A stretch of 36,223 nt of DNA, from the NCBI GenBank assembly GCA_025355165.1, contig JANYAD010000063.1, forward strand, positions 1 through 36,223, read 5' to 3'. Position 1 is the first letter of the stretch, and every line of letters starts with the position of its first letter. Made by a program: the position numbers and the translations under genes. This document shows, piece after piece, positions 18,436 through 20,507 of this stretch. Below the pieces are notes generated by a model. It ran no database searches. It was not told where the DNA came from and was given only the letters and a program-made list of their open reading frames with translations. The DNA comes from Gammaproteobacteria bacterium (GTDB lineage: Bacteria > Pseudomonadota > Gammaproteobacteria > Steroidobacterales > Steroidobacteraceae).

Positions 18436-19821
18436 CTAAAGCCCCTCGGCCGCAAGTTCGAGTGCGCGCCGCAGCACGGCGCTCTTCGCCATCAACTCTT
18501 CGTACTCCAGCACAGCAGAACTGTCTGCGACGATGCCGCCCCCGGCCTGATAACTGTAAGTATCGCCGCGAAATACCAGCGTGCGGATGGTGATGGCCTG
18601 GTCCATGTCGCCCCGCTGGCCGAAATAGCCCACGGTGCCGCCGTAGAGCTGCCGCCCCGCCGGCTCGAGCTCATCGATCAATTCCATGGCGCGCACCTTC
18701 GGAGCGCCCACCAGCGTCCCGGCGGGAAAAGTGGCCGCGAACAAGTCGAATGCGTCTTGGGCAGGCGCCAGGCGCCCCTTCACGCCGCTAACGATGTGCA
18801 TAATGTGGCTGTAGCGTTCGATCACTCGATAAGGATCCACCGACACCGAGCCGGCTACGGCGACCCTCCCCAAGTCGTTGCGGGCCAGGTCCACCAACAT
18901 CACATGTTCGGCGTTTTCCTTCGGATCCGCGAGCAGTTCGAGTGCGAGCGCGGCGTCGCGTACCTCATCGGCGCCCCGTGGACGCGATCCTGCGATGGGC
19001 CGAAGTTGGGCATGTCCGCCGTGACACTTCACCAACGCTTCCGGAGACGAACCTACCACGGTGATGTCGCCGAGCTCGGCGAAGAACATGTAAGGCGATG
19101 GATTCAAAAGACGCAATGCCCGGTAAGCCTGGAACGGCTGCAGCGCATGGCGTCCTTCGAACCGCGATGCCAGCACCAGCTGATAGACATCGCCCGACGC
19201 GATATATTCCTGCGCCTGTCGCACCCGCAATGCGTGCCTCTGTTCGGTCAACGATGGAATGGCCAGCGAGAATTTACCCGGCGCGAGAATCATCGGCACG
19301 GCGCCGCGCAGCGCCCTCATGACCTCGCGTCGCAGGCTTTGGCGTTCGTGCTCGCTGCCATCATGCAAAAGTGCGACGCCGCGAGTCAGATGATCGAATA
19401 CCAACAGCGATTGCGGCGCCAGGTAATGCGCATGCGGCGTTACCGTCTGATCGAGACTGCGCCCCGGCAAACGCTCGAAATAGCGCACGGCATCGTAGGC
19501 TGTGTATCCCACCAAGCCGCCGAGCAGCGGCACGCCGGCGATTTGTGGACTGGGCTTGGGTGCCCGCGCCAAGCCGGCGCGCAAGACATCCAGGAACTCG
19601 TGGCGGTTTTGCGGCCGCGGCCCGATGGCACCGCCAATACTCGCTCCCGCGGCGTCAATTTTAACCTCCAAACAGTCGCCGAAGCCGATGAACGAATAAC
19701 GTGCCAGGCGCTCGCCGCCCTCGACGCTCTCGAGCAGAAATCGCGGCCGAAAAGGCGCAAGCTTCAAGTACGCCGAAACCGGCGTGTCTAAATCGGCAGC
19801 AATGTCAAAAGGCGGTTTCAT
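18436..19821 (-). CDS. trpE: Anthranilate synthase component I
   Basis: 461 residues. It converts chorismate to anthranilate with TrpG and is the first committed enzyme of the pathway. Near the start, ADLDTPVSAYLKLA and FLLESVEGGERLARYSFIG include the LLES element that forms part of the tryptophan feedback site in this family. Chorismate-domain motifs are VYQLVLASRF, SPEALVKC, IAGSRPRGADE, LVDLARNDLGRV and TFPAGTLVGAPKVRAME. I chose ATG 19821. An in-frame TTG at 19839 is less likely because it lies right at the end of the attenuator T-run. The gene is first in the trp operon and sits 20 nt below the terminator hairpin. Confidence 0.97.
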   Translation of the reverse strand: MKPPFDIAADLDTPVSAYLKLAPFRPRFLLESVEGGERLARYSFIGFGDCLEVKIDAAGASIGGAIGPRPQNRHEFLDVLRAGLARAPKPSPQIAGVPLLGGLVGYTAYDAVRYFERLPGRSLDQTVTPHAHYLAPQSLLVFDHLTRGVALLHDGSEHERQSLRREVMRALRGAVPMILAPGKFSLAIPSLTEQRHALRVRQAQEYIASGDVYQLVLASRFEGRHALQPFQAYRALRLLNPSPYMFFAELGDITVVGSSPEALVKCHGGHAQLRPIAGSRPRGADEVRDAALALELLADPKENAEHVMLVDLARNDLGRVAVAGSVSVDPYRVIERYSHIMHIVSGVKGRLAPAQDAFDLFAATFPAGTLVGAPKVRAMELIDELEPAGRQLYGGTVGYFGQRGDMDQAITIRTLVFRGDTYSYQAGGGIVADSSAVLEYEELMAKSAVLRRALELAAEGL

Positions 19822-19840
19822 CGCACATTCCACGGGCAAT

Positions 19841-19877
19841 AAAAAAACCCACCACCACTTGTCAGCGGAGATGGGTT
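19841..19877 (-). terminator. trp attenuator terminator hairpin (regions 3:4)
   Basis: On the minus strand AACCCATCTCC (19877-19867) and GGTGGTGGGTT (19856-19846) form an 11-position stem with one G-U pair and one U-U mismatch, around a 10-nt loop. A run of seven T follows at once. This is a canonical intrinsic terminator placed just before trpE, where no terminator would be expected unless it is regulated. Confidence 0.8.
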
Positions 19878-19910
19878 CTGGATTAACGAAAAGATCAAAA
19901 GCTAAACGGC

Positions 19911-19949
19911 CAGCCCACTCCTCAAGAAAAACGCCACCAGCGGGTGCTG
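19911..19949 (-). promoter_or_regulatory. trp attenuator regions 1 and 2 (pause hairpin and antiterminator arm)
   Basis: Region 2, GAGGAGTGGGCT (19923-19912), can pair with terminator region 3 through GGAG and TGGG against CCCAxCTCC, with one bulged base. That pairing would exclude the terminator. Region 1, CAGCACCC (19949-19942) inside the leader reading frame, can pair with GGGCTG (19916-19911) of region 2, giving the alternative pause hairpin. The order fits ribosome-controlled attenuation. Pairings were worked out by eye, without energies. Confidence 0.65.
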
Positions 19950-19972
19950 CGAAGGATGGGAGCGGTCGACAT
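19922..19972 (-). CDS. trpL: trp operon leader peptide
   Basis: A 16-codon reading frame, MSTAPILRSTRWWRFS then TGA, with tandem Trp codons at 19939-19934. The WWR followed by a short tail and stop is the same design as the E. coli leader (GWWRTS). The stop overlaps the start of antiterminator region 2, as expected for a sensor of charged tRNA-Trp. There is no Shine-Dalgarno sequence, and the start lies about 7 nt past a -10 element. The mRNA may therefore be leaderless, as reported for trpL of Sinorhizobium meliloti. The peptide is inferred, but the frame, codons and hairpins agree. Confidence 0.85.
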   Translation of the reverse strand: MSTAPILRSTRWWRFS

Positions 19973-19978
19973 ACGGTC

Positions 19979-20008
19979 AGTATCGCCGTAGGGGATTGGC
20001 AGCGTCAA
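19979..20008 (-). promoter_or_regulatory. trp operon promoter
   Basis: On the minus strand TTGACG (20008-20003) and GATACT (19984-19979) are separated by 18 nt. They match the sigma70 -35 box at five of six positions and the -10 box at four of six. The predicted transcription start falls on or within a base or two of the trpL AUG (19972). No E. coli-type TrpR operator is apparent. The promoter lies just after the stop of the small upstream gene (20021). Confidence 0.6.
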
Positions 20009-20020
20009 CTGCCAGGTGCA

Positions 20021-20362
20021 TCAATGCTGGCTTTTTCCTGCGGTTTCAAGGACTTTCTTGCATTTACGGGTCAATTCCACGAATCGGGGAGTCAGGCCGA
20101 TGTCTTCATAGACCGGATCGCCGTGATCATCGCGCGAAATCACCTTAGGTCCCTTTTCGTACGGCATGGCGGCCTCGAGCTCATCAAGCGCTGCCCCCAG
20201 CAGATCGGTCACCATTTCTTCGATGGATTGCCCGGCAAAAAGCGTGGCGAGGGCTTCAAGCCTCGCGGCATCATCCAGCGGCAAGCGCACGGCATACTCC
20301 TTGGCCGTCCTTGCAGGTGCCGCCGCCGTCTTCCATCGATCGAGCAAGGGCTTGAATTTCAC
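20021..20362 (-). CDS. Small conserved protein of the 'type 1 pili tip component' annotation family
   Basis: A 113-residue soluble protein. MKFKPLLDRW, then AKEYAVRLPLDDAARLEALA, IEEMVTDLLGAALDELE and GDPVYEDIGLTPRFVELTRK resemble a gammaproteobacterial family often labelled pilin assembly or type 1 pili tip component. That label has little experimental support to my knowledge. I chose GTG 20362-20360, with GGAG about 6 nt upstream and a typical MKF start. A longer frame to 20419 adds an unlikely hydrophobic extension. It lies upstream of the trp promoter on the same strand and divergently from the ABC transporter. Function unknown. Confidence 0.75.
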   Translation of the reverse strand: MKFKPLLDRWKTAAAPARTAKEYAVRLPLDDAARLEALATLFAGQSIEEMVTDLLGAALDELEAAMPYEKGPKVISRDDHGDPVYEDIGLTPRFVELTRKCKKVLETAGKSQH

Positions 20363-20507
20363 GACTACTCCGCCATAGCAGACTACTGCAAATGACATTA
20401 TAGCCGCGGGGATCCTCATCAGCGCTCAATCCACTCCGAAATCCGACAATCGCAGCGGCGGTTGGCGGCTCAATCTTGCAGGCGTTTTTGCCTATACCAG
20501 CCGGGCT

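Follow-up and report, generated by a model that had tools for sequence, protein, structure and literature searches.

A predicted leaderless trpL in a conserved trp attenuator of Steroidobacterales (Gammaproteobacteria)

In the trp attenuator of Escherichia coli, pairing of region 2 with region 3 of the leader RNA competes with pairing of region 3 with region 4, and the 3:4 hairpin is a T-run terminator lying before trpE. Its trpL has 33 nt between the -10 hexamer TTAACT and the ATG, with AAGG upstream of the start codon. Leaderless trp leaders have been published for Sinorhizobium meliloti (PMC7298713) and Streptomyces lividans (PMC8079986). In the former, a member of the Alphaproteobacteria with a 14-aa leader peptide and a trpE(G) gene, the 5' end of rnTrpL is given as the ATG of trpL (PMC7298713). 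In the latter, a member of the Actinobacteria, both trpL1, which carries three Trp codons, and trpL2 are transcribed leaderless, the leaders leuL, ilvL, thrL and metL are grouped with them, and trpE and trpS are monocistronic (PMC8079986). Corynebacterium glutamicum, also of the Actinobacteria, has leaders before trpE, leuA and ilvB, with three Trp residues in the trpE leader peptide (PMC4046766), and a reference title in that paper concerns an ilvB leader peptide that is made with no ribosome binding site. Leaderless polycysteine short ORFs serve as attenuators in mycobacteria, according to a title cited in PMC13236596. Translated LeuL, TrpL and MetL leaders are described for Campylobacter jejuni in PMC11955535, which is not cited here for a leaderless trpL. 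In Salmonella Typhimurium, 33 genes have leaderless mRNAs, defined by a 5' UTR of 0-6 nt, and the main text makes no mention of trpL (PMC3293720). A literature search whose coverage left out most subscription journals recognised no leaderless trp leader for the Gammaproteobacteria.

The window analysed here, a stretch of 36,223 nt from a bacterium of the Steroidobacteraceae, carries on its minus strand the following features of a trp operon and its leader.

20008-20003, minus strand: -35 hexamer TTGACG of the trp promoter, read directly and found by a promoter scan
19984-19979, minus strand: -10 hexamer GATACT, 18 nt from the -35 hexamer; its last base lies 6 nt 5' of the AUG, with GACCGT between
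19972-19922, minus strand: trpL leader ORF, MSTAPILRSTRWWRFS plus stop, 16 codons from the ATG at 19972; predicted leaderless
19939-19934, minus strand: tandem Trp codons UGG UGG, read directly
19924-19922, minus strand: trpL stop codon TGA, read directly
19921-19910, minus strand: region 2, the 5' arm of the antiterminator, GGAGTGGGCTGG, directly 3' of the leader stop
19881-19867, minus strand: region 3, the 3' arm of the antiterminator and 5' arm of the terminator, CCAGAACCCATCTCC
19878-19845, minus strand: 3:4 terminator hairpin, from folding and terminator evidence
19847-19841, minus strand: run of seven T after the terminator stem, read directly
19821-18436, minus strand: trpE, anthranilate synthase component I, first gene after the attenuator; TIGR00564 is the best match (467 bits, below the cut-off of 517.7)
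18435-17863, minus strand: trpG; TIGR00566 above cut-off
17852-16806, minus strand: trpD; TIGR01245 above cut-off
16866-15988, minus strand: trpC; TrpC models below their cut-offs; start uncertain, overlaps trpD
15987-15370, minus strand: trpF; TrpF models below their cut-offs
15369-14182, minus strand: trpB; TIGR00263 above cut-off
14248-13391, minus strand: trpA; TIGR00262 above cut-off; start uncertain, overlaps trpB

The genes thus form one run in the order trpEGDCFBA, in which trpG, trpD, trpB and trpA pass the curated NCBIfam cut-offs and trpE, trpC and trpF are identified by best matches below them. We consider it highly probable that a ribosome-mediated transcription attenuator controls this operon and that the transcript encoding its leader peptide is leaderless when translated; the transcription start, the leaderless initiation and the tryptophan response are parts of the model that we infer from sequence. 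RNA polymerase would begin transcription on the trpL AUG or no more than about 4 nt away from it, and a ribosome would load on the 5'-terminal AUG without a Shine-Dalgarno (SD) site. When tRNA-Trp is charged, the ribosome would reach the stop codon and cover region 2, upon which 3:4 would form and transcription would terminate before trpE. When charged tRNA-Trp is short, the ribosome would stall at the Trp codons; these lie 14-20 nt ahead of region 2, which would stay free and pair with region 3, allowing transcription to continue.

The leader shares with E. coli trpL the peptide motif WWR, and the two attenuators have in common a stop codon beside region 2, the competition of 2:3 with 3:4, and a T-run terminator followed by trpE. 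However, the 33-nt interval of E. coli is reduced to 6 nt in the window, and the SD site is missing. Like the S. meliloti rnTrpL/peTrpL system, the window combines trp attenuation with a short trpL RNA that is predicted to start at the AUG, but its trpE and trpG are separate genes in a seven-gene trp cluster. It differs from S. lividans in having trpE within an operon. The likeness to C. glutamicum lies in a Trp-rich leader before trpE and covers the Trp codons, not leaderlessness, whereas that to the mycobacterial attenuators, which respond to cysteine and are compared here by title, lies in an amino-acid-responsive leaderless short ORF. An earlier note on this DNA had described a 16-codon leader with tandem Trp codons, a stop at the antiterminator arm and a seven-T hairpin before trpE, and all of these read at the positions it gave. 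Its remark that the arrangement is atypical of enteric operons agrees with the E. coli spacing and upstream AAGG, and its mention of a leaderless trpL in S. meliloti agrees with the statement in PMC7298713 that rnTrpL starts with ATG.

The sequence family is not recognised by the Rfam model Trp_leader (RF00513), with which the window scored 16.2 bits against a threshold of 41 and none of 19 loci of the order passed, while the E. coli control reached 93.1. Relatives were therefore anchored on TrpE. Sixty genomes of the order were searched, the window's own included; eight had no intact TrpE start and were left out (G012, G014, G023, G043, G045, G049, G053 and G054), giving 52 loci (L001-L030, L153 and L335-L355, again with the window). 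The best promoter was called blind to start codons, with at least four of six matches in the -35 hexamer, and the leader start was taken to be the earliest in-frame start codon of a W-containing ORF lying 3 nt or more beyond the -10. By this rule the gap between -10 and start is 6-10 nt in 48 of the 52 loci, with 13, 15, 10, 7 and 3 loci at 6, 7, 8, 9 and 10 nt, and TTGAC is present in the -35 of all 48. Two further loci, L345 and L348, have a leader whose promoter was missed by the rule and whose gaps by eye are 9 and 6 nt, bringing the count to 50 of 52. A short W-rich ORF (WW or W.W) precedes trpE in 50 of the 52 loci, and the remaining two (L351 and L355, from G041 and G047, respectively) have trpE without a W-containing leader. 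In L351 the stretch is AT-rich and the genome measures 1.6 Mb, for which reason the attenuator may have been lost there.

These results bear on a different reading, in which the trp attenuator has an ordinary 5' UTR, transcription begins at a promoter farther upstream and GATACT is not the main -10 box. A 132-codon ORF on the same strand (20021-20419), without an NCBIfam match, ends 12 nt before the -35 hexamer and could feed read-through transcripts into the leader. Nevertheless, the GATACT promoter is the sole sigma-70-like site found in a scan of positions 19500-20500 (shuffle mean 0.3), no SD site precedes the AUG, and in 48 of 52 loci the same box is found 6-10 nt ahead of the start codon even though the sequence farther upstream differs between genera, as judged by eye. 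We regard an ordinary 5' UTR as quite unlikely, and some leadered transcripts could still arise by read-through from the upstream ORF. Within the genus, most loci have a similar upstream sequence before the leader, again by eye.

A scan of a public genome collection with the pattern of region 2, region 3 and terminator, which is biased to the exact terminator, returned at least 116 loci. Among the matches listed, 109 of 116 have the family promoter and a W-containing ORF starting 6-10 nt after the -10 box, under a rule that demanded the family promoter form and could report only gaps of about 3-13 nt. The leader start in these 109 (among the matches listed) is ATG in 107 and GTG in two, and their Trp codons are WW or WWW in 103, W.W in five and a single W in one. 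The other seven of the 116 listed fail the promoter form and show the same layout by eye: six (L034, L037, L047, L098, L128 and L140) have TTGTAT-17/18-TAGGCT or TAGTCT followed by 6-7 nt to the ATG, and L134 has TTGCGC-17-CATACT-6. In the six TTGTAT loci, inspection by eye suggests that the promoter sequence was replaced and the spacing kept. An earlier rule, applied to 80 of the at least 116 loci, chose the highest-scoring promoter whatever its form and gave ATG priority as the start; it left three loci without a promoter call and six without TGGTGG, and placed three more differently: L042 at a gap of 25 nt, where an ATG took precedence over a GTG at 7 nt, and L070 and L091 at 46 nt, where a different promoter had the higher score. 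The same terminator is found, among others, in loci of Steroidobacter gossypii, S. agaridevorans, Peristeroidobacter soli, P. agariperforans, Povalibacter uvarum and Woeseia MAGs; Povalibacter is placed in the Steroidobacterales and Woeseia in the Woeseiales, both of the Gammaproteobacteria. The family's leader was also seen in records titled Klebsiella pneumoniae, Terrabacteria ANGP1 and Candidatus Planktophila lacus (L082, L064 and L136), which are probably mislabelled or contaminated MAGs. The two sets overlap and together gave 124 distinct leaders, nine from the order genomes and 115 from the pattern scan; this set admits only gaps of 6-10 nt by construction, so that its gap counts are not independent evidence.

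The close placement of promoter and start codon could be a habit of these genomes. The window's genome contains the string TTGAC-N19/20-ATACT-N6/10-ATG a single time, at trpL. Across 21 genomes it gave 21 matches, 16 at trpL and five elsewhere, with no match in four genomes, and the reversed control also gave five matches. Since most matches fall at trpL and those elsewhere equal the control, the juxtaposition belongs to trpL and is not a genome-wide habit for this promoter form, the one form that the test covers and beyond which leaderless genes with other promoters are invisible to it.

Leaders of other gammaproteobacterial orders provided a contrast. A class-wide TrpE search returned 5 of 150 at a strict threshold and 165 of 206 at a looser one, and the upstream regions of 107 of the 165 were examined (80 plus 27 loci). 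Among the matches listed, TrpE of other orders is at most 51% identical, so that their leaders serve as contrast and not as homologues. Among 31 scored W-leaders, one of them that of E. coli, the gap is 6-10 nt in three, at most 5 nt in four, 11-25 nt in one and more than 25 nt in 23, under a looser rule (-35 with three of six matches, most upstream ATG) that is not strictly comparable to the rule for the order loci; five further rows with W-containing ORFs carried no promoter score. The rarity of short gaps there indicates that the method does not by itself produce them, and the gaps are to be read as a contrast and not as proof of a 5' UTR in those leaders, many of the promoter calls being poor. 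The E. coli promoter itself was miscalled in this scoring, as TTAACT fails the rule of A at position 2, and its 33-nt gap was read directly. One locus of another order, L174, has a WRW-type trpE leader, MNTFFQILAANARWRWFA, in the arrangement TTGATT-18-TATACT-6-ATG, and is a possible independent leaderless case. A class-wide census with the covariance model R1, run with stricter filters, matched only 6 of 276 genomes and was therefore set aside as a means of delimiting the family.

The usual discriminator between -10 box and transcription start is about 6 nt long, so with gaps of 6-10 nt the RNA would be expected to begin either on the AUG itself or 1-4 nt upstream of it, inside the 0-6 nt by which PMC3293720 defines leaderless mRNAs; at the longest gaps, 9-10 nt, a 5' UTR of 2-4 nt could remain. 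SD-like strings, defined as GGAG, AGGA or GAGG within a 17-nt segment that stops 3 nt short of the start, occur at 5 of 124 trpL starts. Three of these lie wholly upstream of the -10 box, two overlap its first base and none lies downstream of it, so that they would not be transcribed. In the same loci, counting the starts that could be placed by script, such strings precede 28 of 105 trpE and 48 of 59 trpG starts. No other in-frame ATG, GTG or TTG lies between the start and the first Trp codon in 99 of the 124 leaders, 23 have one and two have two. The short gap between -10 box and AUG that the earlier note read in the window recurs, at 6-10 nt, in 48 of the 52 order loci, and its suggestion of a possibly leaderless trpL gains support from this gap together with the lack of a usable SD site: the trpL transcript of the window is very probably leaderless, with its start predicted from promoter spacing.

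The 132-nt leader has a predicted folding energy of -45.5 kcal/mol (z -2.42; 4 of 200 dinucleotide shuffles equally stable), and the predicted structure consists of a 5' stem that takes up region 2, plus the terminator. The pairing of region 2 with region 3 is predicted at -15.0 kcal/mol and the terminator at -20.9 kcal/mol. Of the three foldings that the earlier note had proposed to check, 2:3 and 3:4 stood. The 1:2 pairing was the weakest part of its description: region 2 of the window is predicted to pair with leader nt 3-16 and not with the Trp-codon stretch, and covariation for 1:2 among relatives is weak, being reached by 3, 36, 7 and 22 of 500 shuffles for sets of 124, 85, 68 and 42 leaders.

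Among the relatives, the core of region 2, GGAGNGGG, and that of region 3, ACCCATCTCC, are nearly invariant, and no covariation can therefore show there; the GGAG of region 2 is identical in all 29 aligned loci (L028, which has no terminator pattern, was left out of alignments A1 and A2). For the same reason, RNAalifold on 29 loci found ten terminator pairs and none with both sides changed, and a shuffle test on the 124 leaders was used instead. Beyond the invariant arms lies a third 2:3 helix, CTGG with CCAG in the window, which among the 124 leaders changes on both sides, as in CGGG:CCCG, CCGG:CCGG, TCAG:CTGA and GCTGGCT:AGCCAGC. The mean length of this inner helix exceeds that of all 500 shuffles for 124, 85, 68 and 42 leaders, a progressive dereplication that left the outcome unchanged in a test that itself ignores the relatedness of the leaders. 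With a control slid by 8 nt, the helix length was not above the shuffles. At best 2-3 inner pairs form in 29 of the 124 leaders.

In 123 of the 124 leaders, 14-20 nt separate the first base of the final Trp codon from GGAG, the exception (L048) being a start mis-picked by the script. A distance of 14-20 nt corresponds approximately to how far a ribosome extends downstream of its A site. The stop codons of the 123 leaders fall into two classes: in 69 leaders the stop begins 2-5 nt ahead of GGAG, in 54 it begins 10-30 nt past the point where GGAG starts, and in no leader does the stop lie less than 24 nt before ACCC. In both classes a finishing ribosome would cross region 2 and, by that distance, fall short of region 3. 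Judged by spacing (the 14-20 nt and the stop classes), the geometry of stalled and finished ribosomes would fit the masking of region 2.

The hairpin and T run might instead be a terminator or the 3' end of a small RNA, with no translation-dependent control and an incidental W-rich ORF. The terminator fold is stable on its own, at -20.9 kcal/mol as given above; however, the Trp codons, their spacing to region 2 and the compensatory changes in 2:3 are kept while the N-termini of the leaders diverge, which makes this explanation very improbable. A translation-dependent attenuator remains the preferred reading, and the earlier note's description of a complete trp attenuator is upheld by the conservation of Trp codons, stop, 2:3 complementarity and terminator in relatives, while the comparison of related genomes that it had proposed yielded conserved WW codons and stems, with compensatory changes in the inner 2:3 helix.

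By analogy with rnTrpL and peTrpL of S. meliloti, the terminated leader RNA and its peptide might act in trans as well, which would be compatible with the attenuator. The layout is the same, with a trpL RNA of about 132 nt from the predicted start at the AUG to the terminator. The N-terminal residues of the leader vary across relatives, which argues against a conserved peptide partner, although in Alphaproteobacteria a conserved role of the peptide is described despite low sequence conservation (PMC7298713). An additional function in trans appears unlikely, albeit less so than the two alternatives considered above.

A broader interpretation, which we advance tentatively and hold to be somewhat short of an even chance, is that an order-level lineage has kept a leaderless trp attenuator whose placement of the promoter directly at the AUG is, for this promoter type, nearly unique in its genomes, and in which the promoter-AUG and ribosome-to-region-2 spacings are selected, whereas the N-terminal residues of the peptide drift, as does the position of the stop before or after region 2. 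On this view, initiation at the 5' terminus would be the designed loading step by which the first ribosome is brought into step with RNA polymerase, and proper attenuation would be confined to transcripts that arise from the trp promoter itself. A leaderless trp leader across most of an order belonging to the class of E. coli would show that SD loading is not needed there for trp attenuation, and would offer a natural comparison for the synchrony of ribosome and RNA polymerase at the first codon, and the cultured carriers among the Steroidobacter, Peristeroidobacter and Povalibacter loci make the leaderless reading testable. The family is, as far as its sequences predict, a gammaproteobacterial (Steroidobacterales-like) case of leaderless trpL that Rfam misses; the kind is known, and the lineage, the Rfam-missed sequence family and the two stop-codon classes appear to be new within the literature searched.

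A short, unexplained motif follows the T run in the loci of L001-L030 that have one, GTTGTC or GTTGCC in 18 of 29 and ATTGCC, ATTGTC or CTTGTC in six. Leaders of other amino acid operons were also sought in the lineage. Upstream of 18 hisG and 16 ilvB loci no His-run or Ile/Val/Leu-run leader was seen, and Leu-rich leader ORFs were present at two of seven leuA loci (L311 and L316), both with a T-run hairpin downstream. In L316, GATACT lies 6 nt before the leader ATG, and this leuL may be leaderless too.
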